Below, in pieces: positions 20,290 to 63,830 of a stretch of DNA of 64,000 nucleotides. The notes below the pieces were generated by a model. The model searched no databases. It was given only the letters and a program-made list of their open reading frames with translations, and was not told where the DNA came from. Source of the DNA: Eutreptiella sp. 'Long Island Sound 2002' (Eukaryota > Euglenozoa > Euglenophyceae > Eutreptiales > Eutreptiaceae); contig OZ038378.1 in assembly GCA_964036045.1 (NCBI GenBank), forward strand, positions 179,659,754-179,723,753. The letters are read 5' to 3'. Numbering within the stretch: the stretch's first letter is position 1; the number at the start of each line of letters is the position of its first letter. Made by a program: the position numbers and the translations under genes.

Positions 20290-20564
20290 ACACTTTCTGA
20301 GTGTCTATTTTTTTTCGATTGACCCTCAGAAATTTATTGATGGATCCACCAGCAGTCCAGGCTGTTCGGTGATTAACAAAAATCCTGGGCTGTTCAAGTT
20401 CTGGGCTGATCCCGTGAAGCCGTGGATTACCAACAAAGGTCCCAAAGCCGCAATTTGGAGCCGAGGCAAGCGCAACAACCTTGCCGTCAATTTTTTTGCC
20501 TAGCGCAAAGCCGCAATCGTGAGCGCCGTCCTTTGCCTAGCTTCGCAACGCCGTTTTCTTGGCA

Positions 20565-23969: not shown

Positions 23970-24107
23970 GGAACCTACACTCGGCGTCACCCTTCTGTGC
24001 ACACAAAACGTAGTCTTCGCTTTAAGGCCCCAGATACCCTCCATCACCATTATTGCATGTTCTCAGGCATGGCAAGGCCATCGCTCTACCACTCCCCTTG
24101 TACGTAA

Positions 24108-26796: not shown

Positions 26797-26808
26797 CCCC
26801 CCCCCCCC
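26797..26808. repeat. 12-C homopolymer at a frame change in the RT
   Basis: Upstream RT motif B and downstream motif C are in different frames, and this run is the only low-complexity sequence between them. Its length could be an indel, a sequencing or assembly error, or a slippage site. Confidence 0.75.
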
Positions 26809-28411: not shown

Positions 28412-28425
28412 CCCCCCCCCCCCCC
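28412..28425. repeat. 14-C homopolymer at a frame change after RNase H
   Basis: The RNase H frame continues only about 100 bp past this run before a TAG, while a long open frame (to 29,599) begins across it. It is the second case in this LINE where a C run marks the shift. Confidence 0.75.
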
Positions 28426-29599: not shown

Positions 29600-29723
29600 A
29601 TCAGCGTTCACCTAACCTAACCATCAGAGCAGCCGTGTACATATCTTTATATGTTGATGTAAATACTTTCATTGGGGGACGTCAGCCCCAGAACAAGTTG
29701 ATGCGGTTAAGAACATTCAAAAA

Positions 29724-35000: not shown

Positions 35001-35095
35001 TTGTGCTTACCGTTTCCCGACTGGGATGGTGTGGCGCTTCCCACGACACCATCCTTCGACCGCCCTAGCTGCGGCCCTTGGCTGCAGGGGCTCCG
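32015..35095 (-). pseudogene. element A pol 5' part: protease, MTase-like domain, RT, RNase H
   Basis: Read in the same frame as gag after the UAG at 35,096-35,098. Residue numbers here count from a GTG at 35,044. Protease: VFDVLVDTGAQVSLVKAGLL (catalytic DTGA). A domain around residues 300-420 follows (LALDAFSSGTPTHLRVCEKY, WIHCPRWDIPRAV, KAVLVVPMG) that aligns with the methyltransferase-like domain of elements B and C, but the NPPF catalytic motif is HCPR (34,016-34,027), so it is probably inactive. RT: EWRLVVDYRGLNAQT, VIDLKHGYHQMP, PFVDDVIIAS (both Asp, residue about 776). RNase H: VLRTDASDYAVGAVLEQ. The frame is open until a one-base shift near 32,020. Confidence 0.88.
34016..34027 (-). 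other. degenerate methyltransferase motif IV (HCPR)
   Basis: In the position of NPPF of elements B and C the codons read His-Cys-Pro-Arg. The flanking pattern (W-I before, I-P-R-A-V after, then LVVP) is preserved, which supports homology despite loss of the catalytic motif. Confidence 0.7.
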
Positions 35096-39460: not shown

Positions 39461-39839
39461 GGCAGCGGGGGGCGTACTTGGTCTTGAGGTCCTTGGTGGG
39501 CTCTCGTTCCGCTCAACGGACTGGTCCTGGTGGTGGTTGTTGAAGCGGTTGACGTAGCACTGGACTGGGAGTGCGGCCGGTGCCCGTCGGCCGGTGGTTG
39601 TGGAAGTGGTTGCTGTAGCTGGGAGTGCGGCCTTGCTGGTCGGCCGAGGGAACTCGTTGATGACGGAGTTCCGGTCCCCGCACTTCCTTCACGGACTCGG
39701 CGCTATCGCTGGGCGGCGCTGCGAGCCGCTGCGCTGCGCTGCGAGCTGCGAGCTGCGAGCTGCTGCGCCGCGCTGCTCGGGGTTGGTGGCCCCGAGTGGC
39801 ACGCGAGGGATGGGTAACCCCGAGGCGGTGAAAAGCTTT
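39461..39839 (-). other. element A leader between 5' LTR and first ATG
   Basis: 379 bp without a gene. Directly after the LTR the minus strand reads AAAGCTTTTCACCGCCTCGG, which does not begin with TGG, so no ordinary tRNA primer site is visible. A GC-rich CTGCG/GAGCT repeat occurs around 39,715-39,775. Confidence 0.6.
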
Positions 39840-42800: not shown

Positions 42801-43025
42801 TGGCGTGAAATAGTAAGATACCGGCAAATCGCAGTTTGCCGGTACATGGTAACATGACCCAAGTGGCCGGAATGCCGTCACGGGGGCTTTACGGCAAGGG
42901 ACACGCTCCTGCCGGGCTCTCACCGGGCTTCACCGGGCGTCTTCCCCTCCGTACATGGGGTTAGTGGGCACACAGAGACCGGTTGTATACCCCACCATGG
43001 TCATGGGGTTCTGGGTACCGCTTCA
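39840..43025 (-). repeat. element A 5' LTR
   Basis: 3,186 bp, the partner of 15,983-19,169, with the same TG...CA ends. It would carry the promoter for the minus-strand transcript. I cannot pinpoint a TATA box or start site with confidence. By eye it is about 97-98% identical to the other LTR. Confidence 0.92.
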
Positions 43026-45842: not shown

Positions 45843-48056
45843 ATGTCCACACCATCAGTACAGATGTCTGCCAGGACCTGGCCGATTCGGAGTGTACGCC
45901 GTCAACTTGGCATCAGTGGGCCCACCTCAACGAGTGAGCCCAAACTCAGAGCCGCATCTGGGTCTCGATAAGATCCAGTACACAGAAGGGCGGAACAAGA
46001 TGCGCCCAGATTAACCATAGAGGCCTTAGCGGCCCGTGGTGATAGCCTTCAGCACCTCCGCCGAAGGGTTGCTGCGTCGATCTCCAGATCCATATGCCCA
46101 GCTTCTTCTTCAACGGCTACCCCCGCTCGAGAACCTGAGGAAGAAGGTGAATTCAGAAGGAAAATCAACGAATACATTCTCCACGACGAGTACTACAAGT
46201 CCGTCACAGGCGAAGATGGAGAGGAACCACTAGACGCCTTGGGATCCCCACCGTACACGGACATGGTTTCCTACCCTTACTCCGGCCCATCTACGGACCT
46301 GGCCGACACAGTGTCTCTACCCAGGCAACCTCGAGGGCCAGTATGGCGTCAGGAGCTGCCAATCACTAGCAGGAGCCCTGAAGTGTGCTCCGCATATGTG
46401 AAAGCTCCCCATCTACCAGAGCCAACTCATGGGGCCCTGGACCGTACGGCCGAATTACTGGCCAAATTACTGTCTGGGTCCGAAGACCCTGATGTGACAG
46501 CCCTTTCTGAGGCTGTCAAAGCTAAATTGGGCATCACTGAACTCTTACCCCAGCCAGCGCTACTCTCATCTTCACCAGGATTGAGCACGTTGGCTGATAA
46601 TCTCAAAAGATCAAGGGTGTCCAGGTTGCTACCCAAGGTCACTTGCCCCAGCCCTTTTCATCCTCGCGCCAGGACAGTTCCTATTGCTGAACTACAGGAC
46701 GTGCCGGTGACGGAGACTGAGAAAAGAGAGCTGTCAGCCCTGGCACCCCTTGCCGGCGTATCGCCTTCTGGCCTAACTCCGGGGCGTGGGAAGACGGGCA
46801 GACCTATTGCCCAGGCGAACATCCAGCTGGAACTGCCAAAGTTCGACCCCAAAAATCTGCCCGAATGGGCAGAAGAATTTGCTGAGTTTCTTTTGCTGAC
46901 TGGCCAATCCCATGTGGATGTGGCCACCAAATGCTCACTGCTGAAACGCTCATGCAAAAAGAAATTTTTGCAAAAACAGGTGAAACAGATTGTGAAAACC
47001 TGTTCCACCTGGGCAGAGGTACTCCAGAGGTTGGAGAAAACGTTCCCAGTCTATGAGACTGACCTCAGTGTGCGCACACAGATAGACGAGCTACCTATGC
47101 TCCCTGAGTTTCCTTCCGCTGCGCGAATCTCTGACTACGTGTGCGACCTTGAGTATCTGTTTTCGAATATGAACGTGGGCTCCTACGGAGCCACTGAGCC
47201 CCACCTGTGGCTCATGAGTAAGATCCCCCAACGTACGTGGGATTATCGCCGCTCTACCTCTGAGAGGAAGAGTCGGACCCACTCGTACGATGAACTGGTG
47301 GACCTTCTGATTGAGCTAGCTCTTGAGAGGGAGAATGTTTCCCACATGGAGCAATTCCTCAAGAAGCACTTGGGTCGAGGGGGTAACCCTACCCCTGAAC
47401 GTGGCAAAGGGAAAGGGCCTAAAAATCCCACGAACGCCAACCAGGGAGGTGGTAAGAGAAGGGGTAACCTACTCGCCATGAATGAGGTTAAACCTGATGC
47501 AGATACACCCCCTTTGTTCTACTGCAAACCTGTCAATGACAAGGGGGGGCCTTGTCATGCCCCTGACTGCGATCAACGCAGTAGCTGTATGCTGCAGATG
47601 AAGCGACAGCAGCATATCAAGGATGGGAAACCTGTGACCCATCAGGATCATTTCAGGTGTACCATCACCTGTGGCTATTGTGGCAAACGTCGTCACTACG
47701 AAGACGAATGTCACATAAAGAAACGCGAGAGTGATAAACTCAAGCGGCAGGAGGCTGAACGCCAGAAGACCCAAACACCCACCAAAGGCCCTCAGCATGG
47801 GGATAAAGGTGGTAAAGGAGGTGGCAAGGGGGGTGGCAAAGGTGGACCCCCTAACCCCCAGAGGTGCTCATCAGCGCCCGTTGCTACACCCCCTCCTGCT
47901 GCTACACCTCCTCCTGCCGCAGGTGATCCCAAGATTCGCCCCAAGGGGGATAACACTACCCCTGAGGGGAATGACTCCAAGAAGAGGCGATTGGCCAGGA
48001 TGGCCAGGTCCCTCATAGCTGCAGGGGTGGATGTCAAGTTCCCTGATGAGGAGTAG
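45843..48056 (+). pseudogene. element C Gag with zinc knuckle
   Basis: ATG 45,843 (MSTPSVQMSARTW) opens the frame; a TAA at 45,969-45,971 interrupts it early, after which it is open to TAG 48,054-48,056. The middle part (LELPKFDPKNLPEWAEEFAE, then LLKRSCKKKFLQKQVKQI, SARISDYVCDLEYLF) has the helical pattern of a Ty3/gypsy capsid. Near 47,660-47,715 lies CGYCGKRRHYEDEC, a canonical C-x2-C-x4-H-x4-C zinc knuckle, followed by a Gly/Lys-rich RNA-binding tail (GGKGGGKGGGKGG). Excepting the TAA it would be about 737 residues. The final TAG is followed in frame by protease. Confidence 0.8.
48054..48056 (+). promoter_or_regulatory. in-frame UAG at the gag/pol junction of element C
   Basis: GAG-TAG-GGG-GGC separates the Gag and pol frames, which are in phase. 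UAG followed by GG and a purine-rich stretch resembles the readthrough context of gammaretroviral gag-pol. Compare elements A (35,096) and B (53,200). Confidence 0.6.
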
Positions 48057-48680
48057 GGGGGCGGCTCCGAAGAGGAGGACTTGGTTTTCTGGATCCTCGT
48101 GAAAATCGGGGATCAAGTTTTTCGAGCGGTGCTTGACACCGGTGCAACACTTTCCATAGTGGCCCGGCGCCTGCTAAGGACTTTCAAGAAAACTAAGACC
48201 GTGGCCATAAGAGTAGGGGATGGGCGTACCATCCATTCCTTGGGGGGGGTCGATGTGACTATATGCCTGGGCGACGAAACCGTGACCCAACACTGCAGAG
48301 TGCTGGACACCGACGCCTTTGACATCATCATTGGTACCGACTTCCTACGAAGAAACCCCCAGGTAAAAATGCTGTCTCTCCAGCGCCCCTATTCTTTGCA
48401 CTGCGACTTTGGCAGTGGGCTGTTCTCCGTACCTTTGGAGCTGTCAGGACGAAAAGAGTCTGGGCTGCGCTACGCATCCAAGACTAACTATCGAACTGAA
48501 AACTACCAATTGGCCCATCACGTTGTTGAAAATGGACTGGCGGCCCTTCAGGTAAACCTGGATGAGATCCAGGTGGAATTGTTTGCGAGCCAACAACAGC
48601 ACGTCATGCAGTTGTACTGCTGGAAACAAATGAACAATGCTTTCCCTTTATTCTGGAAAGCAATGGGCCTAGCGTATGCT

Positions 48681-48692
48681 AACCCTCCCTTC
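48681..48692 (+). other. methyltransferase catalytic motif NPPF (element C)
   Basis: AAC-CCT-CCC-TTC, followed by S-L-L-A-K-V-L and, 14 residues later, the V-V-M-C-T-P-D-W strand. The spacing matches element B. Confidence 0.72.
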
Positions 48693-49796
48693 TCCCTGCT
48701 CGCGAAGGTTCTAACCCAAATCGCTTATGAGGGAGGAAGGGTTGTCATGTGCACCCCTGACTGGGGCTGCTCTGGTGAACATGCTTACTGGCGCCGTATG
48801 CTAGATCGAATGACCGTGGGAAGAGTGCTACTCCCCGACGGCCCCATCTATGTGCCTGAGGACTCAGACACAGCTATGCAGGCCCCTGAATGGGCCAGTT
48901 TCCTGTCCATTGTTGATGGATCCCTCAATCCTGTACCCCTGTGTGACCTAGACCAGGTGCTACTGAAAGAGGTCATGGCCGAAAATCGTGGCCTGACCCT
49001 TCCTGATCTCAAAAATCCATCTCCTGAGCACCTATCTGCCACACTTACAGGGTGTGAGTCTCCCGATGGCTATGTGGAACCTGCAGCCGCTAAGGAGGAT
49101 GCTGACGACCAACTGTCAGAGATCGCCAGCACTATCCCCCCTGTTGATCCCAGCTGTGTTGACCTAAAACACAGTGCCTTCCTGGCCCAGCTGTTGCTGG
49201 AGGAGGTAGATCTAGAGTCGACCTCAGAACACGCTCCCCATTTTGGGAAGCCAGTGCTACACATGCAGCCTATGCACACAGGTGAACCCGTGGCCCGGAG
49301 TCCTGATGCTCTGGGGCGGCCTGCTTCTAATAACATGCCACTGTCTGAGCACGACACTCAGGAACTGCGGCGGCTGTTGTACCTGAAGGCCGAAAGTATT
49401 GAGCGCCAAGAGCGGCTGCAATACCTCAGACAGACCTGAAAATCCTCCATCTGGTCTGAGGAGGACAATGATTCCTATACGCTGCCTGATCCTGAGATAC
49501 CGCTAGTATATTCTCTGCACTATGGGCAGCAATGTCCCCCTGAGTGGGACGATGGTTCTGTGCCTGCCGAAACTGCTGATCAGCAGAAAAAGAAAGAGTA
49601 TGGAAAGAGCAAGCTCCATGCTGAGGAGGATTTCCTGCAGAAACTCGAGAGTCTCAACCTTGACCCCCGACTGAAGAAACTGCTGATAACCTATGAGGAG
49701 GTGTTCGGCGCCTTGCCGCCTCCCCTCTCTTGTAAAAAACTGGTCCAGAAGGACCTGAAACTGAAACCTGATTTTGAAAAGACGCGAGTGAGGCGT

Positions 49797-49801: not shown

Positions 49802-50334
49802 TGTAAGTGCGGCTAACCCCCATCTGCTCAGATTTTCACTGATCTGCCCCAGATTGACTACATTTTGGTCATTTTCTTTGCTTCGGGGGAATCGCCGCCT
49901 CGCAGCTCAGTCTCAGGATCAGACCTATATATTTCTGATATGCCAGATCTGATTCCGCGGTCCATTCTCCGTAAATCCGCCGCGTTCCGATCAATTACCT
50001 GGAATCGCCATTTCCCGCTGACGCGCGCTCGCGGGCCAGATCGGCCAAATATTTTTCACAATCGGATTTATATAAATCTTTTCAGACAGATATGGACACT
50101 CAGATGTACTTAGGATAATCCGCATCAATTTTCTTCATAGACTGGGATTTTCTGCCGGATAACAATCAGCATGGATCTTGCTTCCGTTGTTGCTGCTCTC
50201 GCCTCCGTTGGTGTCCGTGTATCCGGTTCTGCCCCCAACAGCAGCGTTCAGGTCGACTCCTCGCGTGCCTGCCCCACTGGTCTTGCCGGCCCCGAGCCCT
50301 CCGGCACCTTCCACGACCCAGGGCAGCACTTTCA
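49802..50334 (+). repeat. element B 5' LTR
   Basis: It starts TGTAAGTGCGGCTAACC and ends GGGCAGCACTTTCA. It contains a TATA-like stretch and, unusually, the Gag start codon at 50,171. Confidence 0.95.
50066..50075 (+). promoter_or_regulatory. TATA-like box in element B LTR
   Basis: TTTATATAAA lies about 100 bp upstream of the Gag ATG. The same site in the 3' LTR reads TTGATATAAA. It is the best candidate for the element promoter. Confidence 0.5.
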
Positions 50335-51480
50335 TGGTAGCAGAGGCTACCTGAATGTTGCTTCAGTGGTCTCTGCCCCACAGCCCGCTCCCCAGTACGG
50401 CCCCGTAGACCCCGCCGCTCCTGGAGACGTAACGATTACGCTGCCATGGTGCTGCGCGAACGAGGCCTTGAAAGGAATGCCTTGCGCAAGTCCAAGCTGC
50501 CAAAGAAGGGCGCACATCAGCAGCTGTGGGGACCCAAATTACTCTAATCCCAGTCGAAATTGGCCATCGAGCAGCTGGAATCAGCCGGCCTACGACGATG
50601 GCAACGCTCCGGTAGACCTTACGGAGCTGGCAGGTACCAACATTCCTTACCAATGTCCAACATTTGAGACCACGGACGCCGATCTTGACGACATTGAGAT
50701 GGGCGGTCCAGGTGAGGTACCTAGCTATAATCGACCAGCCTCTTGGGCACAATGGGACGACCATTTGTCCCTAGAAGTGACCCGTAACCTTGAGGCCCTT
50801 GAGGCCCTTTGTCTCTTAGCTTCGTCTAAGCTGATCGAACAAGAAAGAATCGCCTCTGATTTTTTAACGGAATATTTTTTCCTCCTTCAGGACGAAATTA
50901 ATACCAGGATGTGGTGGCGTTCTCAAGAAGATGACACTTTTGCCATTTTTTTGCAGATCTGGGAGGCAAGCCCCTTCCCGAAGGAGAAGGGCACGGCACC
51001 TGTTCCCGGACCCTCCGCCCCTCATCCACCTGTTTCCATCCGCGACGATCTAGCCGCCGCGGTTGAGGAGGGAATTTTAGAGGCGGCCAGGCAGGCAAGC
51101 GTGGAAATTAGGGCTGAAGGAGCTCCCCAAGTGGACTCCTGGCTGCGGACCACCGAGATCAGCGGTCCGACAGCCTGCTCAGGCCCTTCAGGACACGGTA
51201 TGTACTGTCCTGCCGACTGCTCCTGCAGATTCCAGCGAGATGCTGAGCTCCAAACGCTCAAAGATCAAATGCACCTCATCATTGAAACGCTCGGAATAAA
51301 AAATCTTTTCAAGACGCACATGCGGTCTGAGGGCGCCTCATCGGTGGAACAAGCAACAGAGCCGTCGGAGGAGGCGACAGAAATTTTTTCAATTGCTCCT
51401 TCGGTGGACTCCAGGACCACCGATGCAAGGATCAGCAGGACCAAGCTAAAGGAAAGGGTTAAAATCTCTCGTTCTGAGAG
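50171..51480 (+). pseudogene. element B Gag N-terminal part, starting inside the LTR
   Basis: ATG 50,171 lies in the 5' LTR; the first 55 codons are LTR sequence and the frame then runs straight through the primer binding site. The protein starts MDLASVVAALASVGVRV. It then has a Pro/Ser-rich part, two Cys/His clusters (PWCCANEALKGMPCASPSC, MYCPADCSC) and an acidic helical section (ALEALCLLASSKLIEQERI). The frame stays formally open to a TAG at 51,566-51,568. From about 51,481 the coding signal moves to another frame (ARTEAQNAKRTASRTAPPAA), which leads into the capsid. That implies an indel or a programmed shift near 51,480. No known domain identifies this part; it is placed as the N-terminus of Gag by position. 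Confidence 0.6.
50335..50347 (+). other. primer binding site of element B
   Basis: TGGTAGCAGAGGC begins directly after the 5' LTR. It starts with the TGG expected opposite a tRNA CCA end. Its first 12 nt are complementary to CCUCUGCUACCA, the 3' end of initiator tRNA-Met of the AGCAGAG acceptor type. The site lies inside the Gag reading frame. Confidence 0.85.
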
Positions 51481-51483
51481 TAG

Positions 51484-53202
51484 GACGGGAAGGCTAGGAC
51501 TGAGGCTCAGAATGCCAAGCGAACTGCCTCCCGTACTGCCCCTCCTGCTGCTGATTCCAATACCTTAGCCCAGTTGTTGCTCGCCCAGACCCTCGCCGGA
51601 GCTGGTGTGGCGAATGATGCCGCCAAGGTGTCTGCCATTACGGCCGGTGTTGGGCTGGATTCGCTTCTTAATCCTACTTCATTGCGACTTCGTCAGGTTG
51701 CCAAGCAACCGAAGTATAATGGGAACCCCCGACGTTGGCCTCAGTTCCAACGGGAATTTAAACTGTGGGTTAAGACTCAAAAACTCCAAGATGATCAGTT
51801 CCTGATGGCCCTCTTGGATTGCCTTGAGGGAGCGCCGGCCAATACTTGGCTCAGGACTTGGAGTGATCGTGAGGATACAAGTTCCCCCCTTACCTTCGAT
51901 GAGGTGTGGGAACAGTTGGAGGTACGTGGATCCCGGCTGCCAGAGGACCATTACCACCAAATGGTGAAGAATTTTCCTTCATTCTCGCGATTAATCTTGC
52001 ACGAAGTGCAAGACAAAAAACAGCGCTTCTGGAATTTAGTGGAAGAATCTGAACATTCAGGCGAAACATTTTCTAGTGCCGAGCTGAAAAATTTGATTTT
52101 TGACAAGATCCCCTCAGAAACGGCCGCCACCCTTCGGAACAGACAGTCCGAAGAAAAGGTCAAGACCTGGTGGGCGGAGGTGGAAGGCTTCGATGCCTCT
52201 GCCAATAGGTTTTCCGTCAGGGAGGCACTTCAAAAGTGCTCCCCCACGTCCTTCTCCAAGGTGAAATTCACTGAGGAGACGTGGAAAATCAAGTTTAATG
52301 AACACGAGGATCGGGACTTGTTTGTCCAAGTCCTCAACAGGGGAGTAAGTTTCCATGGCCATCGCCTGAAGGCCAAGAACTGGGTGTTTTCGTTCACCCC
52401 GAAGGAACTCTGGGAGGAGGCTGAGCGGCTCGCCGACGCCGCCAATCAGAATTTCCATGAGGGTCTTGGGGGAAACAAGAATACCCAGCAAAACACCCAA
52501 AATGGGGCCCAAAAGGGCAACAAAAAGGTGAATGACACCCGGAATGTTCAGGATCACTGTAGCATCTGCCTTTTTTTAGGTTCTACGAACCGAGCTAAGA
52601 CGCATTCTACTGGTAATCACCGATGGTCTCCTTACGATCACAAGGTGATTGGTGAAAATATCAGTAATCCGCAGAATTCAGACAGGAATGACAGACAGGT
52701 GCACGGTGGGAAGGCTGGAAAAGGGAATCCGACCCCCTCCGGTGGAAACAAAAATCCTGGAGGCCCTGGCGAGTCCCAAGGCACAGGAAATCGGACTCCA
52801 TCCGGCTCCGGTGGGCAGCCGAACGGCCAGAAAAATCCCAATAGCAACGCCGGAGGCGGAAATCGAAATCCAGGCCAAACCCCTCAATCCGGTACAAACA
52901 AGGGAAATGCTCCAGGATTCCAGGGTAAAGGTAAGGGAAATCCTTCGGGAACCCCTTTCTCTGGTAAGGGCAGAGGGCGTGGCGACGGTGGAGGTCCATC
53001 ATCCGGCGGCCGTGGCCGTGGACGTGGAAAGGGCAACCATCGTGTGGATCAGGTCTCAGGTGCAGATCAGGTGTCCGATGCGGATCGAGATTACGCTGAA
53101 AATGCCTTGAATCCAGCAGATGATCCGCTCCAAGATGAGTGGGTCGACGAATCAGGGTGTGTTCACAATGTTAACGCAGTCACTGGAGGTCAGAACGCCT
53201 AG
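51484..53202 (+). CDS. element B Gag (capsid and RNA-binding tail)
   Basis: This is an open frame from about 51,484 to TAG 53,200-53,202, in phase with pol. KQPKYNGNPRRWPQFQREFKL and LMALLDCLEGAPANTWLRTW have the pattern of Ty3/gypsy capsid N-terminal helices. A later segment (DHCSICLFLGSTNRAKTH) is a possible zinc site but not a canonical CCHC. The C-terminal 170 residues are Gly/Asn/Arg-rich with RGRG repeats (SSGGRGRGRGKGNH), a likely RNA-binding tail that replaces the knuckle. An acidic end (DPLQDEWVDESG) precedes the UAG. It would assemble the particle and package RNA. Its N-terminal start depends on the upstream frame change. Confidence 0.75.
   Translation, partial: DGKARTEAQNAKRTASRTAPPAADSNTLAQLLLAQTLAGAGVANDAAKVSAITAGVGLDSLLNPTSLRLRQVAKQPKYNGNPRRWPQFQREFKLWVKTQKLQDDQFLMALLDCLEGAPANTWLRTWSDREDTSSPLTFDEVWEQLEVRGSRLPEDHYHQMVKNFPSFSRLILHEVQDKKQRFWNLVEESEHSGETFSSAELKNLIFDKIPSETAATLRNRQSEEKVKTWWAEVEGFDASANRFSVREALQKCSPTSFSKVKFTEETWKIKFNEHEDRDLFVQVLNRGVSFHGHRLKAKNWVFSFTPKELWEEAERLADAANQNFHEGLGGNKNTQQNTQNGAQKGNKKVNDTRNVQDHCSICLFLGSTNRAKTHSTGNHRWSPYDHKVIGENISNPQNSDRNDRQVHGGKAGKGNPTPSGGNKNPGGPGESQGTGNRTPSGSGGQPNGQKNPNSNAGGGNRNPGQTPQSGTNKGNAPGFQGKGKGNPSGTPFSGKGRGRGDGGGPSSGGRGRGRGKGNHRVDQVSGADQVSDADRDYAENALNPADDPLQDEWVDESGCVHNVNAVTGGQNA
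53200..53202 (+). promoter_or_regulatory. in-frame UAG at the gag/pol junction of element B
   Basis: GCC-TAG-GGG-AGC lies between the Gag tail and a continuous pol frame in the same phase. It has the same position and codon as in elements A and C, and the same following GGG as C. Confidence 0.6.
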
Positions 53203-56200
53203 GGGAGCCACGAAAATCGCCCCTCCCCAGGCGATTTCAGGCATGATCCCCAGATTCCATCTCGACCACTACTTGATGTAGGGTCGCTTGTCTCCTCTCC
53301 CCTGGATCCGGCAGCGGATCCTTCTGTTGTAGTGGACGAGGTTGGTGTACAGTCCAAGCACAGGGCCCGTCATTTTTTCACAAAGATGTGGGTCTCTGAT
53401 CGCAAGGGCAATTTCCACCTCGCCACTTGTTTGTGTGACAATGGATCAGAGGTAAATCTCCAATCCAATTCCTTTTTGCCTGACGACTGCGTGCTTGATT
53501 CGCCTCTTCCTGTTACCCTCGAGGGAGTTTCTGGACATTCTCTCGCAGGTGGGCAACGCGGTTGTTATATATCCACCCATTTGGTCGCTCAAGACCTTTG
53601 GGAAGAAGGCAATGTGGAGGAAGTTATCCTTAAGGATGACTACTTCTATCGTGCCGACATAAAGTATGACCTTTACTTGGGCCATCCTTGGCTTCGCAAG
53701 AACAGGGTGGCGCCCGTAGGTCATCGGCGTTGTTTTTTGCTGGAGTCAGGTCCCTTGGAGCGTCCTGAATTTCGTTTTTTGCACGCAGGGTTTAAAAGTG
53801 CAGAAGAATTTTTGAAGCAAAAGGTTACACCAAAATTTGGCGAAGATGTCACCATTGCAGAGGTGAATGGGAGTGCCGTTTACTCCCGAGAGTTAGAATG
53901 TCTTCGTAGGGACTCCCAGCCACGACGCCCTTCGCGCTGGCACTCTTCATCCTACAGAGTTGTCGACAAATGGCGCGATACAATTTGTGAATATTTTTAT
54001 GAACACCATTCCTTTTGGCCACAGTATGATGCCTTTGCTAACCGCGAGAACAAGCGCTTTGACAAGCATTTTCGCGACGCTTGGACCCATAAATGGGACA
54101 AGAAGTTGTGGATTAATCCTCCGTTTCACTTAATCCAGCAGGTCATCCACAGAATCAAGCAAGATAAAACCCGGGCGATTTTAGTTGTGCCTTTGTGGGA
54201 CGACAAGCCTTGGTTTCAGGAATTGCAAGACATTTGTGTAGATTACATCGAACTTCCCAGGAAGATTAAGCTGTATGCCAGAGACGACACAGGTCCCCTG
54301 CCACAGCGGTCCTGGGGTTCGCTTGCATTCCTGGTGGATGGAAAGCTTTCTGACTCTGATTCTGCTGATTCTGGTACTGATTCCTGTGTTGGGTCTGAAT
54401 CTGAGGTTGAGCGTGGTACTGATGATGAATCTATTTTTTCTGATTTTTGTCCGTCAGATACCCAAGGTGATCCAACGTCAAATGGATCCGCCTCGTCTCC
54501 CTCTTCCCCAATACGATCGACATCGAAAAGAATCTTCAGTGCACGGGCGAAGAAAAATTTTAAATCGCGCCGCAAATTCAGAGTTTTTTATGAAAAACCC
54601 CGTGTGGAAGCTTTCATAGATCCTTTCGAGGAGCTGGATCACGAAGAGAATCTCTGGAATGTCGACACTCGACCCACCTATCTTCAAGAGGCAGTTGATA
54701 CGGACCTTTTTAGGGACATCCGTAAGAAGATTCTTCCTGCCAAGGCCGAAGAAGTCGCCAAAGTTTTTTCGACAGTAATTCCTGGCGATCAGGTGGACAC
54801 TGAGTTGTGTTCCAAGAAAAGAGACAAGATTTTTGAGGAACGGAAGGACACAACCCTTTCGGGGAAGTTGATCAAAGACCCCCCTGTCCGTGGGCAGTTC
54901 GGTGAAGCCTTCATCGAGCTTCGTGAAGGTTACAAGGCGAAGAAACAGCGTCCGTATGAGAACCATGGACACAAACATGAGATACTCAGAAAAAAAATCG
55001 AGAGAAATCTCAGGGAATTTGGTTGGCTTGAGGGTTGTATGACCAGCGAATGGTGCTGTGCACCCTTCACAGTCCCGAAGCCGCCGCCTGCAGACCAGAA
55101 CACTATTGATGGTTGGCGAATGGTGGTTGATTTTCGCAACCTCAACGCCGAAACCAAGGCGGATTCACACCCCCTGCCCCTCATTGAGGAGGAAATCGCC
55201 AAGAGGGCAAGAGGTCGTTTGTTTTCTGTGCTGGATCTCCGTCACGGCCTTCACCAAATGCCGTTGAGGAAGGACAGCCGACCTCTCACCTGTATGTGCA
55301 CGCCATGTGGCCCAGTTCAGTGGACAGTCATGCCCATGGGCCTGAAGAACGCCCCTTCGTTTTTTCAAAGAATGATGGAGGATGTGCTTTTTACAGCTCA
55401 TCCTGAGCTTCGTGCCTTCGTGAGCGTGTACATAGATGACATAATCATAGCGACAGAGGGGGATGGACTGACCGAAGCCGAGCTGGTGGCCCTACATGAA
55501 AAGCAGCTGAACCAGGTTTTGGACATTCTTGATGCCAATCAGCTGATTTGTGGGCCAAAGAAGGGAAAATTATTTTTAAAATCAGTCGAATTTTGTGGTT
55601 CTCTCCTTGAGAATGGCACCCGACGACCCAGTCCAGGGAAGCTCGTCGCTATTCAGAAGTGGAAGCGCCCTGAGACGATCACGGAATTGAGAGGATTCCT
55701 GGGTTGTTGCAATTTTTACCACACTTTTGTGCCGAATTATGCCAAATTTGCTGCCCCCCTCACTGAATTATTGAAGGTAGGGAGAGATGCGGGCAAGGCA
55801 GGTTCAAAGGTTCGTGTCAAGTGGACTGACGAGTGCGAGGAGGCCTTCCATCACTTGAAGGCGGCCCTCTGCGAAGTCGCCACGTTGCATGTGCCGAAAT
55901 TCGACCGACCCTTCTACATAAGAACCGACGCTTCTAGGTACGCGATCGGAGCTGTCCTTGAACAGGTTGATGAAGCCACAGGTGATCATTACCCTCTTGC
56001 ATTTTGGTCTCGGAAGCTAGCCCCACGCCAAATGCAATGGTCGCCGCGTGAGCAAGAAACCTACGCCATAATCTGTGCTTTGAAAAAGTACCAATCGTGG
56101 GTTGGCACCAATCGAGTCGAGGTCCTGACAGATCATCGATCTCTGGAGTATTGGGCCACCGAACACATTGATACTGTCGCGAGCCCAGCTGGTCGACGGG

Positions 56201-56874
56201 CCAGATGGCACGAATTTCTCAGTTTGTTTGACCTCCATGTGTCGTATTTCCCTGGAAAACACAACACGGTAGCGGATGCTCTGAGCCGATGGGCTTACCC
56301 CGCTTCAGAGGGGCTGCAAAGTACCAACATCCATGGTACGGAGCAGGACCGCCACGTCGTAATCGAGTGGGATCAAGAGGAAAAAAAGCTCATTCGACGT
56401 GAATGCATGCAATGCGCAGTTAAACAGCATGCCTTACCGTGTCACGATATCACGGCCTTTTCAGATCCGGCGCATGCTCATGAGATGTGCACCAAAACAC
56501 TGAAAGTCGTGGAGAAAGTCACCGATCCCTCCTCAGGGAGTGTGAAACGGTTTGACTATACCCGACGTGTAAGTGGATTTCGGTTGATCCAGGGCATTAA
56601 GCGTCGAGATCCGGCCAAAACTCCACCCCTGCCGAAAGATTCCCTGATCATCCGTGACTGGACGTCCGATTATCTGCATGATTCCATGTTTAAAGAGGTC
56701 TTTGAGAATCTCAAATCCAAAGATGCTCACAAGGATGGAATTTTTGCTGAACATTCGTTGGATGGGGGGAAGCTGTGGATGGAGGGTAAATTGTGCGTAC
56801 CAGACGCCCTGGCCCCCCGAGTGTTAAACTGGTGGCACAAATGGGAGTCCCCCCACGCACATGGCCGTCGATAA
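53203..56874 (+). CDS. element B pol: protease-like, N6-adenine MTase-like domain, RT, RNase H
   Basis: Residues here count from a GTG at 53,332; the frame is open from the UAG. Protease-like: LATCLCDNGSEVNLQSN, where the usual DTG is D36-N-G, then YDLYLGHPWLRKN. The methyltransferase-like domain spans about residues 215-330: QYDAFANRENKRFDKHF (D233), LWINPPFHLIQQVIHRI (NPPF at 262-265), AILVVPLWDDKPWFQEL. This matches phage/Dam-type N6-adenine MTases (DxxAxxxN, then W-x-NPP-F/Y). An acidic Ser-rich linker follows. RT: WRMVVDFRNLNAETK, SVLDLRHGLHQMP, VYIDDIIIA (Y700-D703). RNase H: YIRTDASRYAIGAVLEQ, ETYAIICALKKYQSWV, VLTDHRSLEYW, HNTVADALSRW. The frame ends in TAA at 56,872-56,874 inside the integrase zinc site; the rest of integrase continues in phase, so that TAA looks like a nonsense mutation. 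Confidence 0.9.
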   Translation, partial: GSHENRPSPGDFRHDPQIPSRPLLDVGSLVSSPLDPAADPSVVVDEVGVQSKHRARHFFTKMWVSDRKGNFHLATCLCDNGSEVNLQSNSFLPDDCVLDSPLPVTLEGVSGHSLAGGQRGCYISTHLVAQDLWEEGNVEEVILKDDYFYRADIKYDLYLGHPWLRKNRVAPVGHRRCFLLESGPLERPEFRFLHAGFKSAEEFLKQKVTPKFGEDVTIAEVNGSAVYSRELECLRRDSQPRRPSRWHSSSYRVVDKWRDTICEYFYEHHSFWPQYDAFANRENKRFDKHFRDAWTHKWDKKLWINPPFHLIQQVIHRIKQDKTRAILVVPLWDDKPWFQELQDICVDYIELPRKIKLYARDDTGPLPQRSWGSLAFLVDGKLSDSDSADSGTDSCVGSESEVERGTDDESIFSDFCPSDTQGDPTSNGSASSPSSPIRSTSKRIFSARAKKNFKSRRKFRVFYEKPRVEAFIDPFEELDHEENLWNVDTRPTYLQEAVDTDLFRDIRKKILPAKAEEVAKVFSTVIPGDQVDTELCSKKRDKIFEERKDTTLSGKLIKDPPVRGQFGEAFIELREGYKAKKQRPYENHGHKHEILRKKIERNLREFGWLEGCMTSEWCCAPFTVPKPPPADQNTIDGWRMVVDFRNLNAETKADSHPLPLIEEEIAKRARGRLFSVLDLRHGLHQMPLRKDSRPLTCMCTPCGPVQWTVMPMGLKNAPSFFQRMMEDVLFTAHPELRAFVSVYIDDIIIATEGDGLTEAELVALHEKQLNQVLDILDANQLICGPKKGKLFLKSVEFCGSLLENGTRRPSPGKLVAIQKWKRPETITELRGFLGCCNFYHTFVPNYAKFAAPLTELLKVGRDAGKAGSKVRVKWTDECEEAFHHLKAALCEVATLHVPKFDRPFYIRTDASRYAIGAVLEQVDEATGDHYPLAFWSRKLAPRQMQWSPREQETYAIICALKKYQSWVGTNRVEVLTDHRSLEYWATEHIDTVASPAGRRARWHEFLSLFDLHVSYFPGKHNTVADALSRWAYPASEGLQSTNIHGTEQDRHVVIEWDQEEKKLIRRECMQCAVKQHALPCHDITAFSDPAHAHEMCTKTLKVVEKVTDPSSGSVKRFDYTRRVSGFRLIQGIKRRDPAKTPPLPKDSLIIRDWTSDYLHDSMFKEVFENLKSKDAHKDGIFAEHSLDGGKLWMEGKLCVPDALAPRVLNWWHKWESPHAHGRR
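54115..54126 (+). other. methyltransferase catalytic motif NPPF (element B)
   Basis: Codons AAT-CCT-CCG-TTT encode motif IV of amino-methyltransferases. It is preceded 29 residues upstream by D-A-F-A-N-R-E-N, as in phage-type Dam enzymes. Confidence 0.75.
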
Positions 56875-58386
56875 TGGTCGATGATTAAACATAGGTTGTT
56901 TGGCTCAAGGCTATATACTCATTGCATGAAAGTAGCCGCCGGATGTGCCCAATGTGCTGTCTCGACGCCTCCCAGCGCGAAGAAGCACGGCCATCTGAGG
57001 CCACATCCTATTCCGGAGCGCCTCTTTAACAGAGTCACTAGTGATTTTTTCTATCTTGGTGAACTCGATGGCGAAGAGTGCCATTGGACGAATAAAAAAG
57101 TCAATGGTGTGCTCCTTTTTCAGTGCCGTCATTCCGGCTACATTCAGGTGTTGCCTTGCAACATCGAGTCGATGACTGGCAAGGCTGCCGCCAAATGGTG
57201 CGCGCAGACCTGGATGGGAGGATGGGACGTCCCATCCGAGGTGGTTACGGACTCAGGCAAAGAGTACACCTCCGAATGGTGGAGAGAATTATGTGCTCGC
57301 CTTGGAATCCACCACCTCAGGTGTGAAATCCACTCGCATCGAGCGCTGCCTGGCGAAAGAGCCGGCCGCTCAATTATAAATATGCTTCGTAAGGAGCTCG
57401 CGAGTGAAAAAGATTTCCATTGGCTTGAAGTTCTCTTCGCATTGCTTCGCCGTTACCACAACACGCCTTTGTACCATGGCCTTTCTCCAAATGAAATTGT
57501 CTTTGGACGAAAGAAGTGTTGGTGGAACATGCCGTTGAATAATCCTCGCCCTTGTAAAGATGCTTCGTTGTTTTTGGACGACGTCCAACGAGCAGATAAA
57601 ACTGTCTCGAAATTAATCGATAAGCATCAAGCTGACTGGCTTTGGGTCCAGAATCAAGGCCGAAAAAACCCCCACAATTTTGAAGTCGATGATCGAGTTT
57701 GGCTTCGAAAATCCGAAACCACCCTGGACGGAGATGATAAGCTTCTTCCCTTGTGGGAGGGGCCATTCGCTGTTACAGCGCGTCTAGGTGAGAACAGGTG
57801 GAGGATTCGTGTGGATGTCAGCAGGGAAATTGACGTTTCGGGCGATCGCCTCAAGAGAGAGATCCCCTCCCCCAAGGATCGGGTTAAACCCCTTTTTTGG
57901 ACTTCGAAATTTTTGTCCGATCGGGTCATCGAAGGGGGGAAGTACGAACTCAAGAGGATTTTAGAAGCAAGACGTGACGGCAAGGGCGAATGGGAATTTC
58001 TATGTGAGTGGAGAGGCTTTGATTCCAGTCACAACAACTGGGAACCAGCCCATTCTTTTGTCCATGGGTACACCAAGGGGTTCATCGACTTCCTCAAGAA
58101 GCACCCCGAAATTGGCGTACTCCTGACAGACTGTCTGTCGAAACCAGACAGACAGGTGGAGAGCGACGGAAAGAGACCTGTGGTGAATCGAGATCCAGCC
58201 TTTTACGGCCCTCAGCAGCCACATTCCAGGGCTGATCCATCGATCCCCCCTCCTGCGGTCAGGCCAGCCCAGGAGCCAAATGAGGACCAAGCTTCAAGTT
58301 CGGCCGCTGATTTGCAGCGCCCAAGCCGTACGAGGGCCAGACCAGACAGGTTGGTGGTCACATGTATTCGTGCTTGGCCGAATTGA
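56875..58386 (+). CDS. element B integrase and chromodomain
   Basis: In phase with pol after TAA 56,872-56,874. It starts with the second half of the zinc site (GCAQC). Counting from 56,881, the catalytic core has D55 (TSDFFYLG), D124 (VVTDSGKEYTSEWW) and E159 (LPGERAGRSI), a D,D-34-E arrangement. LSPNEIVFGRK and a VWLRKSETTLDGDDKLLP... DNA-binding region follow. The chromodomain at about residues 355-410 reads YELKRILEARRDG, WEFLCEWRGFD, NNWEPAHSF, with aromatic positions kept. The last 90 residues are Pro/Arg/Ser-rich. It ends in TGA. Integrase would insert the cDNA and the chromodomain would bias target choice toward marked chromatin. Apart from the single upstream TAA the protein looks intact. 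Confidence 0.9.
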   Translation, partial: WSMIKHRLFGSRLYTHCMKVAAGCAQCAVSTPPSAKKHGHLRPHPIPERLFNRVTSDFFYLGELDGEECHWTNKKVNGVLLFQCRHSGYIQVLPCNIESMTGKAAAKWCAQTWMGGWDVPSEVVTDSGKEYTSEWWRELCARLGIHHLRCEIHSHRALPGERAGRSIINMLRKELASEKDFHWLEVLFALLRRYHNTPLYHGLSPNEIVFGRKKCWWNMPLNNPRPCKDASLFLDDVQRADKTVSKLIDKHQADWLWVQNQGRKNPHNFEVDDRVWLRKSETTLDGDDKLLPLWEGPFAVTARLGENRWRIRVDVSREIDVSGDRLKREIPSPKDRVKPLFWTSKFLSDRVIEGGKYELKRILEARRDGKGEWEFLCEWRGFDSSHNNWEPAHSFVHGYTKGFIDFLKKHPEIGVLLTDCLSKPDRQVESDGKRPVVNRDPAFYGPQQPHSRADPSIPPPAVRPAQEPNEDQASSSAADLQRPSRTRARPDRLVVTCIRAWPN

Positions 58387-60224
58387 GGGAGATCCGTCGT
58401 GACTTGAGTCGCCGACGCCATAATCTGGGTAACAGTCGTCTAGTCCCGGGCGTCATGGCACTCGTCGCTAGGGCTCAAGGGTGTAGGTTCGAAACCCTTG
58501 CATGTCCAACTCCTACAAAAGCTCCAGCCTCGCCCCGTCGACCACTTATTCCAATGTGAGTGTTCTGACGACTTGAAAGAACCACATTCTGTTCAATCCA
58601 CTGTTCATTCTTCCTGATTACAGCATGATGTGGAGAACTGCGAATGTTTGATAATTTGACGTCAATCAACTTTTCTTTGGTCTCCGTTCGGCAGACAAGG
58701 CGTAGATACGCTGCCGAAAGCCACGGAGTGTGCTGCCGTGTTCAGAAAAGAACCAAACTCAGGCTTAATTCAGGCAGATTCGGGGTAATCTTGTCTCTGT
58801 TGGTCTGTGCATCTTTGGAATTTGGCTGCTCGTGCAGATGGAAGCAAATGTACATAGTAAAAACGCTGGCCAGCGACATTCACCCCTACAGGCACCCCCT
58901 GTAGTACTGGCTGCACCAGATGCGACGCCAGGAACTCAGATCTTACCTTCATTTGCCGTGATGCGGAAGCCAAAGTCCAGATTCAGATCCAGGATCCTCA
59001 AATTTACCTTGAATTTCTCAGGTTTGTCCTTCATTCTGCCATTGTTGCACGAAACCCCGACGTCAATTGTTCAGACAACCTTCAGACAGAGGCTCTAGGG
59101 ACTTCTAAAAGCAACCTCTGAAGTCCGTAAGCTTCAGTGTATTTTTGGCACACGCCAATGTGAGCTCAATCCGACCTGAAACTGTCGAAAATGGTGAATC
59201 CAAGTGTCTTGTGGGACTCAATCGAAAGATTGGCCTTGTTCAAGTCGATTGACACCGCCGCCACTGTAAATAAAGGACCATTCGGTGTCTCTCAGTTATA
59301 TACTGTCAGTAAAGCGCCTTCAGCGAACCTTCGGCGCGTTACATGCCAAGGATCCAGGGCCATCATGTCCCATCATGATGCATCATCACATGATCCACAT
59401 TTTGATGGAATCTGTTGGATGCTCGCGAACCAACGTGCCGGAAAGCACAATTGAGCTGAATAAACGACAATATATATTAACTTTAGTCTAAACGAAGGTA
59501 TTAGTAGTTTTAGTTCTAGACATTCCGCTTCATTTAACCTTCATCTTAGGGAATTTCCTCATTTTAGGACAATTTAGGCTGATTTCCTTGTCATCTCCAC
59601 TCATTCCTCGAAGATCTGTGCCTAACTAAGTGAACAGAAAAACATCCCTACCTTCTGTGGTTCACTTAGGGCCTACAGACTACATCTGTATTTGTTTTCC
59701 CTCTCTGTGATTGTTTCATCTCCTTCATCTCTGCTCAATTTGATTCTCAATCTTGCTGAATCTTGTGATCATCCACCAGATGCGCCAAATCTGAAGCACA
59801 TGCTGCACTTTTCAGAACGAGAAAAGCGGGACTAACACGATGTAGAGTACGTGGAGGACACCGTAGCGTGCCCGCGACAGCTAAACTGTGCCAGAGCGCC
59901 GAGATGTCACTCCATCTCTTGATTCCCCCACTCAATCCACCAATAATCTACCTCATTCACAACCAGTGCATGGTTTGGTATCGATTCTCGATACGTTTAC
60001 ATGCTTTTTAGCCCTTAACCTAATGTTTTACTGCACGGAGAACTGTTCGTCACTCCTCATTCTGTCTCATTTCAGGTTCATCCATCCTGATTCAGTGCCA
60101 ATTCAGCCCAAATCAGGTCAGATCAAGCAGATTTCGCCCCATCGAGGCTATATTTCTTTTTTTTTCTGGGACTTACCCGCACTACGTTCTTCGTTGACGT
60201 AGCGACACACCCCAGTGTGTTTTT
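58387..60224 (+). other. element B 3' internal non-coding region
   Basis: 1.84 kb between integrase and the polypurine tract, with no convincing gene on either strand. A GGTTCGAAACC string near 58,487 resembles a tRNA B-box, but I cannot fold a tRNA around it. The length is unusual for a Ty3/gypsy 3' UTR. Confidence 0.65.
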
Positions 60225-60234
60225 GGAGGGGGAG
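60225..60234 (+). other. polypurine tract of element B
   Basis: GGAGGGGGAG lies directly before the TG of the 3' LTR, with a T run just upstream (TGTTTTT), the usual U-box/PPT arrangement. Confidence 0.85.
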
Positions 60235-60767
60235 TGTAAGTGCGGCTAACCCCCATCTGCTCAGATTTTCACTGATCTGCCCCAGATTGACTACATTTTG
60301 GTCATTTTCTTTGCTTCGGCGGAATCGCCGCCTCGCAGCTCAGTCTCAGGATCAGACCTATATATTTCTGATATGCCGGATCTGATTCCGCGGTCCATCC
60401 TCCGTAAATCCGCCGCGTTCCGATCAATTACCTGGAATCGCCATTTGCCGCTGACGCGCGCTCGCGGGCCAGATCGGCCAAATATTTTTCACAATCGGAT
60501 TGATATAAATCTTTTCAGACAGATATGGACACTCAGATGTACTTAGGATAATCCGCATCAATATTCTTCATAGACTGGGATTTTCTGCCGGATAACAATC
60601 AGCATGGATCTTGCTTCCGTTGTTGCTGCTCTCGCCTCCGTTGGTGTCCGTGTATCCGGTTCTGCCCCCAACAGCAGCGTTCAGGTCGACTCCTCGCGTG
60701 CCTGCCCCACTGGTCTTGCCGGCCCCGAGCCCTCCGGCACCTTCCACGACCCAGGGCAGCACTTTCA
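60235..60767 (+). repeat. element B 3' LTR
   Basis: 533 bp, differing from the 5' LTR at six positions by eye. The ATG copy at 60,604 opens a frame that runs into element C sequence and is not a gene. Confidence 0.95.
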
Positions 60768-60772
60768 CGTCC
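60768..60772. repeat. target-site duplication of element B, right
   Basis: CGTCC, matching 49,797-49,801. Skipping from 49,801 to 60,773 keeps element C's pol in frame. Confidence 0.92.
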
Positions 60773-63700
60773 CTATCCCGCTCCACAGGAACAGGTTGAA
60801 GAACTAGAGCGCCAGATCCAGGAATGTATTGATGCTGGCCTTGTTGAAGAATACAAGAAGGGGGACTACCCCCATCACTGCAGTTCCTGTTTCCTGGTTT
60901 CCAAAGCAGGGTCGACTGCCCTACGACTGGTTGTTGACTATGGTGAGGTCAACAAGAAAACCCAGAACCACTCAGGGAGTATTCCTAACATGGAAAATAC
61001 CCTGGAGCGTATTGCCAAATGCAGGTACAAGACCAAAATAAACAAACGCTCTGGTTTCTGGCACGTGGACCTAACCGCCGCAGCTCAGGAGCTGCTGGCT
61101 TTTATAACCCCTAAGGGCCGTGTCTTTAAGTGGAAGGTTATGCCTTTCGGGGTGGCTAATGCCCCAACGCTTTTCCAAGAGCTAATGAACAAAATTTTGT
61201 ACATACTGAGGCGCAGGCCTCTAGTACAGGAGTTGATTTCTCGGGGTGCAGAAATGGAGGCCCACATCGACGACGTGAGTTTGGGTACTAATACCCAAGA
61301 GGACCATGTCCTTCTCCTCCGTGAATTTTTCATTGTTTGTCAAGAAAACCATCTCCGAATCAAACTCGAAAAATGTGAGTTTATGAAAGAGGAGATGGAA
61401 TAATTGGTTTTCGACGTGGGGTATGGTTGGTGGAAACCAGCCGCGTCTAAGATGCAGCCCCTACAGGACATGCAGATTCGCGATGACCCTAAGAAGGGTC
61501 TACACGACGTGAGGAGTTTTGTGGGCGCCTGTAATTTCTATCGGCGTCACATCCACAATGTTACTTACTCCTCTGCCCCCCTCACTGACCTAATCAAGAA
61601 AACAACTCCCTGGAGGTGGACCGCCAGAGAGGAAGAGTGTTTCCAGGAGTTGAAGAAGAAAATTGCCTCCTCCAAGTGCCTGGGAGTACCCCGCCCTAAG
61701 GGCAAGATAGTCCTGATCACTGATGCCAGTGATGTAGGGGGGGGTGGTACGATCTACCAATGGCAGGAGCTTAACCCCGCTGAACTAAGGCACTGCCATT
61801 ATGGTACTAGTGGACTGAACCGTGATGGTTCGTTGAAACATGACTATCCTACCAGTGAGTGGCGGCTGGTGCCACTGGGACACTGGAATTGGAAATGGAA
61901 CCAAGCGCGTTCCAATTACAGCACCTATGACCAGGAACTCCTGGCCGGTATGTTGGTGCTTTCGTCACAGTCCCGACTCCTGGGATCTAACCCTATTGTC
62001 TGGCTGTGTGACCAGGAACCTGTGAAGTCTTTTCAGAAAGGCTCACCACCAGAGAAAGCAAAGCCAAAGCGGTGGTGGACTTACCTGAGTCAGTTCAGGC
62101 TGACAGTTCATCATATCCCCGGAATAGAGAATGAATTGTCTGACTATATATCGCGCAACAACTTTGATGCGCTTATAGGTGAGAGCTCTGAGGCGCTCGC
62201 CAGAGAGGCTTTCCAGCGTATGGATGTCCAGCTTGACCTGTCCATGCGCACTGCTGGAATCCTGGAGGGTTGGAGTCTAACCGATTATCAGTCAGAGTAT
62301 AAAGAAATTCTCCAAACCCTCAGCACTGGTCTCGAACCCCGTGTCATTGACGGGCACCAGTGGTATAAAAACGGACAGTACCTCTTCTACGAGGACCGAA
62401 TTGTGGTGCCTGAGGCACGACTGGATGGGTGCCTACAATGGTCCCATCTCAGTTCTGGTCACACTGGCGCTAATCGCTCAGTGGACGTCTTCCGTGAGTG
62501 TTTCTACTCTAGTCTAACCCTGACTGAACTGAGGTCGCGTATGCAGACCATTGTGGATGCTTGTGGCTGTCATGCCAGCAAGCAGAGCGACGGTAGGGAT
62601 AGGGGCCTGATTTCCAGCTTACCCATACCCTATTGTGCTAACTCTCTTCTCTACGTGGATTTCATCCGGTGCCTACCACGTTTCGGCGGCTATGATAGTT
62701 GCCTAGTGGTCACCTGTGGCCTATCACGCTTCACCCGTGTGTTCCCTCGCAATAAGAAAATCACAGGTGAGCAGAGTGTAAAAATGTTGGTCGAACAATC
62801 GTTCGAACCCTATGGAGCACCTAAGCAGGTGCACTCTGATGAGGATGTACGAATCCGCAGTGACACTGGGTGGTACAAACGAGTGCCAAATGCCCTCAAT
62901 GTGGAGGTAACCACAGATGTGCCCTATACGCACACGTCTAACCCTCTCTGTGAGAGACAGAACCGTATGGTGGAGCAAAACCTGTGAATCCTGATGAAAC
63001 AGGAGCGTACCAAGGACTGGGTACGCCTAGTGCCCTGGGCAGTGCTGACCATGAACTCACAGCGGAGCTCCTCTACGGGTTTCACCCCCAACGAACTGTT
63101 CCATGGAGGACGACCTGCATGGTTCTTCAAAACCCCCTTTCCTCAGGACTTCAAGAGCCCTGTGGGAGATTGGCTGGAACACAAGCAGTCTCTGGCTAAC
63201 CAGGCTGGGACTAACCTGAGACACATTCGTGACCATGAACTGAGCCGACGGAACCGCCTACGGCGATCTGCCAGCTTCAAGGTTGGTGACCTTGTTTTGG
63301 TTCACCAGTCACGCCTACCTTCCTGGCCACGTAACTGCCTACAGGACCCTTATTTTGGACCCTATCGTATCATCAGGATAGATGGATCCAGGATCCATGT
63401 CAGGTGCAGTCCACGCCTAGGTGGTGAACTGCTGTGTGCACCTAAACAATTGAGGCACTATCACTCCCCTGACGATTTGTCCTGGGATGAGTGGCGCCTC
63501 AGCGACAGTGAGGTCGAGCGTATAGACCTAGGGAACGCTGCCAGTCCAGAGGAGGCAGACGAACTCGAAGAGATGACTGCCGATGAGATGGCAGTCGATG
63601 GTTACTACGTGGTTGCAGGTATTGCTCGCCACGAGTATAAACAGGGCTGGAACTTCCTAACCCTGTGGGATGGCTATGGGTTATCTGAGGCGACCTGGGA

Positions 63701-63830
63701 ACCTATGTCAGCCTTCATACAACCAGATGGGAGTATCAACCCCATCTTCGCCTACTACCTCGTTGAGAACAACGAGGGGCAGCTACTAACCCCTGCTGAG
63801 ACTATGTCCCTGCGTAAAACGCGAAACTAA
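60773..63830 (+). pseudogene. element C pol 3' part: RT, RNase H, integrase, chromodomain
   Basis: This continues the frame of 48,057-49,801. RT: SCFLVSKAGSTALRLVVDYG, FWHVDLTAAAQELLAF, VMPFGVANAPTLFQELM, AHIDDVSLGT (motif C with both Asp). TAA 61,401-61,403 interrupts the segment before GYGWWKP. RNase H: IVLITDASDVGGGG, YSTYDQELLAGMLVL, VWLCDQEPVKSF, ENELSDYISR. Integrase: HLSSGHTGANRS with CGCHASK (zinc), then D in LLYVDFIRCLP, D in QVHSDEDVRI and E in NPLCERQNRMVEQ. TGA 62,985-62,987 follows, and the frame goes on through TGFTPNELFHGG and KVGDLVLVHQSRLP to a chromodomain-like end (YYVVAGIARHEYKQG, LTLWDGYGLSEATWEPMSAF). It ends with TAA at 63,828-63,830. Catalytic residues are present throughout; the two nonsense codons and element B make it inactive. 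Confidence 0.87.

Follow-up and report, generated by a model that had tools for sequence, protein, structure and literature searches.

A Dam-like domain between protease and reverse transcriptase in Ty3/gypsy-type retroelements of Eutreptiella

The elements and the position of their shared domain

The DNA analysed here (called the window) is a stretch of 64,000 nucleotides from Eutreptiella sp. 'Long Island Sound 2002' (assembly GCA_964036045.1, contig OZ038378.1, positions 179,659,754 to 179,723,753 of the forward strand). It contains three Ty3/gypsy-type long terminal repeat (LTR) retroelements, A, B and C, and in each of them a domain of 133-144 residues, resembling the Dam family of N6-adenine methyltransferases, sits in pol between the protease region and the reverse transcriptase (RT). 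The domain of B lies at 53953-54351 on the plus strand (pol residues 251-383), with the motif NPPF at 54115; that of C at 48504-48929, also plus (residues 150-291 of its open reading frame, ORF), with NPPF at 48681; and that of A at 33776-34207 on the minus strand (pol residues 297-440), with HCPR where NPPF is expected. The original prediction, made from the sequence alone, had placed both NPPF motifs correctly and had rightly proposed a homologous domain on the minus strand in A. Identity to the domain of B is 23% for C and 24% for A. An RT follows in all three elements, as predicted (RVT_1 at residues 625-799 in B and 684-851 in A; in C it is found past the nested element B), but the protease expected upstream is supported by a profile only in C (residues 15-99, E 6.4e-8), is weak in A (RVP, E 0.16) and was recognized by eye in B.

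Element B (49802-60767, plus strand) is inserted in element C. Its LTRs (49802-50334 and 60235-60767) are 533 bp long, agree at 527/533 positions, start with TG and end with CA, and CGTCC flanks the element on both sides. Directly after the 5' LTR comes a likely primer-binding site, TGGTAGCAGAGG (50335-50346, plus), complementary to the 3' end of initiator tRNA-Met, and there is a purine tract just upstream of the 3' LTR. The gag ORF (51484-53202, plus) is so assigned by position, no family being above cut-off, and ends with an in-frame TAG at 53200. It is followed by the pol ORF (53203-56874, plus), with the protease region, the Dam-like domain, RT and RNase H, and by an ORF for integrase and chromodomain (56875-58386, plus), in which the rve integrase match is just below cut-off and before which the present copy has an in-frame TAA. 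The protease region reads CDNGSE at 53434-53451 on the plus strand (pol residues 78-83), no protease profile being reported; the usual retroelement protease motif is DTG or DSG. An ORF of 475 codons (50141-51568, plus) extends from inside the 5' LTR into the gag ORF; it has no Pfam match at E<=0.1.

In element C, an ORF that is gag by position (45972-48056, plus; no substantial family match) ends with an in-frame TAG at 48054 and is followed by the ORF for protease and Dam-like domain (48057-49439, plus). The element continues beyond B (60768-63830, plus) with RT, RNase H, a sub-threshold integrase and a weak chromodomain (E 0.01; 16.2 bits, where the cut-off is 25.1). Protease, RT and RNase H are thus above cut-off in C, and rve and chromodomain below; LTRs of its own were not seen.

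Element A (15983-43025, minus strand) has LTRs of 3.2 kb (39840-43025, 5'; 15983-19169, 3'), which are identical at 3097/3186 aligned positions, and GGAA is common to both flanks. Its pol ORF (31832-35095, minus) comprises protease, Dam-like domain, RT and RNase H, and a further ORF (30141-32174, minus) encodes chromodomain and integrase, with rve again just below cut-off. Ahead of the gag-pol junction are two long ORFs (37976-39688 and 35588-37975, both minus), which include one coiled-coil-like stretch and belong to no clear family. A LINE-type element on the plus strand (20541-29615) splits element A, and carries an AlkB-like 2OG-Fe(II) oxygenase domain (E 4.3e-10) in an ORF upstream of its endonuclease, RT and RNase H; in orchids, an AlkB domain borne by gypsy elements removes the m6A methyl group from RNA (PMC9289625).

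Chromodomain matches exceed the cut-off in B (E 1.8e-6) and in A (E 6.5e-6), so that these two have the LTRs, RT, RNase H and chromodomain of Ty3/gypsy chromodomain elements, with rve just short. The original description of all three as chromodomain elements is therefore confirmed for A and B, and has only sub-threshold backing for C. Likewise, the three families said to lie side by side are indeed divergent (RT identity to B is 46% for A and 30% for C, the latter over a shorter fragment), but they are nested, B inside C and A split by the LINE-type element. Further in-frame stops (B, 56872; C, 49437, 61401 and 62985; A, 35590) mean that the copies are not all intact. Elsewhere in the window, a 349-codon ORF (6018-7064, minus) encodes a coiled-coil-like protein with only sub-threshold Pfam matches (best E 0.0011). 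A search for the spliced leader of dinoflagellates came up empty.

Likeness to Dam methyltransferases

For all three excised domains the top Pfam family is PF05869 (Dam), with E values of 1.6e-4 for B, 9.6e-3 for C and 1.8e-3 for A (21.8, 16.0 and 18.4 bits); none reaches the gathering cut-off of 28.1 bits, the best score, 22.1, being obtained for B with tighter ends, and we therefore speak of a Dam-like domain rather than of a member of Dam. When the whole proteins were scanned, PF05869 came up in B (0.0035) and in C (0.061) but did not appear in A. Among PHROGs, a DNA methyltransferase family was matched by B only (0.0037), C matching a family of unknown function (0.31) and A none, and among NCBIfam models a phage N6A methyltransferase was matched by A (0.0044) and C (0.12), with nothing for B. 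The profile search proposed with the original prediction thus gave the family it had named, albeit below cut-off, and the alternative named there, a retroviral dUTPase or linker, found no echo: no dUTPase family was reported for the excised domains, and the other families had E values of 0.16 or worse.

As every single match lies under the Pfam cut-off, the likeness might be due to chance, or the domain might have some other fold (dUTPase, linker or RNase H-like). This was addressed by comparing profiles (hhalign) of the three element domains (alignment A5) and of 10 phage Dam proteins (alignment A6), all 10 of which were assigned to PF05869 by scan. The rows of A6 come from 14 phage loci fetched, L002 and L003 having been left out as near relatives that resemble L001 in how well they match the query, and L008 and L012 also left out. 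Two of the rows were first found as the best matches to B (L001) and to C (L014), which slightly biases the comparison in favour of a match, and L007 and L009 are nearly alike. The two profiles align with a probability of 97.6, an E value of 4.5e-12 and a score of 75.4, colinearly over 114 of 138 columns. The score falls to 63.2, 60.0 and 60.5 when B, C and A, respectively, are left out, and is 48.8, 36.3 and 36.5 for B, C and A as single sequences. None of 300 column shuffles reached 75.4 (best, 25.8), the reversed profile scored 13.7, and an RT alignment, as a control, gave a probability of 0.45.

A second comparison used a hidden Markov model (HMM) of 20 viral Dams, drawn from a joint alignment (A7), and searched it, unfiltered, against the 964 ORFs of at least 40 residues in the window. 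B (8.9e-8), C (0.005) and A (0.037) took ranks 1-3, rank 4 had an E value of 0.65 and the best reversed ORF 2.5, and no further such domain stood out among these ORFs. For the viral relatives, 80 of 539 were kept and 35 of the 80 inspected, and 12 passed a filter at 70% identity; L027 was dropped before the filter because of a stop, and L094, a partial sequence, after it, leaving 11 rows. From two further sets of relatives, 3 rows were used out of 5 inspected of 7, and 6 out of 12 inspected of 17; the unused rows had stops, frame breaks or only partial matches, or, in the case of L098, were close to a relative already included. The Dam likeness of the three domains exceeds chance. With no shuffle reaching the score, the three domains at the head of 964 ORFs, other families no better than E 0.16, and a fourth element (below) turning up in a separate scan, chance or a different fold seems to us scarcely credible.

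An AlphaFold2 model of the B domain, with viral Dams in the alignment, is confident (pLDDT 88.6) and Rossmann-like, as the original prediction had led one to expect; its matches are to N6-adenine and other class I methyltransferases, none of them in the PDB at E<=0.001 (the best, at 2.0e-3, is KsgA). The model covers B only, and its confidence leans on the viral Dam rows. Prediction from just the sequences of A, B and C gave a model of low quality (pLDDT 55.7), which matched nothing in the PDB at E<=0.001; the helices (58-71 and 86-94) and strands (74-79, 95-100 and 124-129) of its more confident half are consistent with the model of B made with viral Dams. The MAFFT alignments A1 and A3, in which the first strand was misplaced, were not used for structure. 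A sequence search of solved structures with B, A5, A6 and A7 gave a best E value of 0.056, all names being unrelated.

With Dam (PF05869/TIGR01712, phage/bacterial DNA N-6-adenine-methyltransferase) the element domains share an N-terminal helix, a strand with D-x-F/A-A/S, the NPPF/Y strand, a strand ending in P and the later strands. They differ from it in scoring below the curated cut-offs, in having F for Y in the catalytic motif, in the P-x-W of B and C, in the absence of GRLxF and in being part of a polyprotein.

A fourth element, and the question of descent

When a collection of prokaryote genomes was scanned with B, one locus was found, which we call L119 (BQJP01000066.1, filed under a Thermodesulfobacteriota metagenome-assembled genome, MAG). 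A gag-like ORF (which by eye ends in a CxxC...CxxC stretch) is followed, after an in-frame TGA, by an aspartic protease (RVP, E 1.9e-4) and then by the domain, beyond which an RT begins; the RT was read by eye from FRLVIDYRKLN, the locus ending there with no RT profile matched. The simplest explanation of L119, and a probable one, is that a retroelement of eukaryotic origin has contaminated the MAG. Because the same order recurs in this other contig, the arrangement of protease, methyltransferase-like domain and RT seems not to be confined to the window. No relative came up in viral_contigs when B, C, the L119 domain or an RT alignment (A2) served as query.

Against the profile of the three window domains, the L119 domain gave a probability of 95.9, and against the phage Dams 85.3. 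Among Pfam families, PCIF1_WW fits it better (E 2.6e-4) than Dam does (0.011), both matches being sub-threshold (PCIF1_WW, 21 bits against a cut-off of 31.1). PCIF1/CAPAM (PF12237) is the cap-specific m6Am RNA methyltransferase, from which A, B and C differ in their retroelement setting; no match to PF12237 was reported for A, B or C at E<=10 with filters on. In passages of PMC8868631, PCIF1 is reported to be without prokaryotic homologues. The L119 match points to RNA, and RNA is a serious rival to complementary DNA (cDNA) as the substrate: the domain could be a PCIF1-related RNA N6-adenosine methyltransferase that modifies the genomic or messenger RNA of the element, for instance at the cap-adjacent adenosine, so as to raise the stability of that RNA or hide it from host sensing. 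We regard this as a doubtful but real possibility.

A Dam-like methyltransferase (MT) in DIRS retrotransposons was cited in the original prediction, and passages of PMC3783388 do describe a PF05869-detectable MT domain within the pol of DIRS1-like elements. In DIRS, however, MT comes after RT and RNase H, and the elements have a tyrosine recombinase but neither protease nor integrase (passages of PMC3266345, PMC3783388 and PMC2685390), whereas A and B have LTRs, and the order in the present elements is protease, MT-like domain, RT, RNase H and an rve-type integrase; this comparison is one of architecture, not of sequence. The function of the DIRS domain was called unknown in 2011 (PMC3266345) and still in 2019 (PMC6681497). 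A phage Dam, a PCIF1-like host gene and DIRS are all candidate sources of the domain.

Other retroelements have captured other enzymes. DNA-methylating domains likewise occur in ORFs of retrotransposons with a DNMT (LINE and DIRS elements of Symbiodinium, gypsy pol of Klebsormidium), but these are C5-cytosine enzymes, described as structurally unrelated to Dam-like ones (passages of PMC5890265), and the NADAR domain of Ectocarpus gypsy (PMC12477816) and the AlkB domain of orchid gypsy (PMC9289625) are different enzymes again. According to a review, Dam is found in DIRS, and cytosine methylases in both gypsy and DIRS elements. Literature searches covering titles, the starts of abstracts and passages among the papers listed (Repbase entries and subscription journals lay outside their scope) brought up no description of Ty3/gypsy elements that have a Dam-like domain at this place in pol, and passages on VIPER/TATE (PMC6681497) and on eukaryotic 6mA (PMC12695648) name no such case. 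The architecture varies a known theme, a retroelement-borne domain resembling adenine methyltransferases, which here occurs outside DIRS and elsewhere in pol.

Activity, expression and a possible role

The motifs W-x-NPPF and VV-x-x-P-x-W had been predicted for all three elements. The first is present in B and C but not in A, which reads W-I-H-C-P-R, and the second likewise fails in A, where P-x-W is replaced by P-M-G. HCPR is at least 6 of 12 bases away from NPPF, and at the rate implied by the LTRs of A the probability of so many changes is 6e-9 to 4e-7 (assuming independent neutral changes). Decay after insertion is therefore improbable, and most likely the family of A had lost NPPF before this copy was inserted. 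With its catalytic motif replaced, the domain of A is probably not catalytic. The motif GRLxF, present in 20/20 aligned viral Dams, is absent from all three, the corresponding columns reading RKIKL in B, DGPIY in C and AGESV in A. With NPPF kept, the domains of B and C could be catalytically active, one conserved Dam motif being altered.

The likely family-wide loss in A, the absence of GRLxF throughout and the NPLW that L119 has where NPPF is expected would all fit a domain that has retained the methyltransferase fold but lost the enzyme function, and serves as a nucleic-acid-binding module or structural spacer between protease and RT. The retention of NPPF in B and C, at a domain identity of only 23%, instead suggests selection on the motif, and we consider such a wholly non-enzymatic role improbable.

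The reading that we tentatively prefer, at somewhat under even confidence, sees in the segment a divergent methyltransferase of class I and of N6-adenine type, with homology to phage Dam and probably to PCIF1, which has become fixed in the pol of a set of Ty3/gypsy elements and would act on the element's own cDNA. Several findings weigh against it: besides the sub-cut-off Pfam scores, the HCPR of A, the NPLW of L119, the missing GRLxF, the preference of L119 for PCIF1_WW and the dependence of the structural model on viral Dams, a maximum-likelihood tree groups the three window domains weakly (65/84) and with very long branches, and tblastn of C and A against phages gave two records each, at chance level only. 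Those for C were an N-6-adenine-methyltransferase (E 3) and an alanyl-tRNA synthetase (E 8), and those for A two minor tail proteins.

How might such a domain reach its substrate? In all four elements, gag and the protease region lie on either side of one in-frame stop codon: TAG-CGG in A (35098, minus), TAG-GGG in B (53200, plus) and in C (48054, plus), and TGA-GGG in L119 (position 748 of that locus). This suggests that gag-pol is expressed by stop-codon read-through, not by frameshifting. With occasional read-through of the stop, the domain would be made within Gag-Pol and so be located inside the particle, beside RT, where the protease may free it or leave it tethered. There, with S-adenosylmethionine, it could methylate adenine at N6 on the newly made cDNA before integration, and the mark could shield the cDNA from host nucleases or alter the silencing of the new copy.

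A broader proposal, which we put forward as speculative and rather unlikely in its entirety, is that these elements represent a widespread, unrecognized Ty3/gypsy group with its own N6-adenine methyltransferase, interposed between protease and RT. The enzyme would descend from a PCIF1/Dam-like ancestor, independently of the DIRS domain, and would mark cDNA or capped RNA as self before integration, some families having made it non-catalytic.

That a related domain occurs in LTR elements with an ordinary integrase, at another site in pol, and that four divergent elements have it, suggests that such domains have been put to use more than once rather than being an oddity of DIRS. The elements offer a further setting for studying how adenine methylation serves a retroelement, and the link to PCIF1 bears on the origin of the eukaryotic cap m6Am enzyme.
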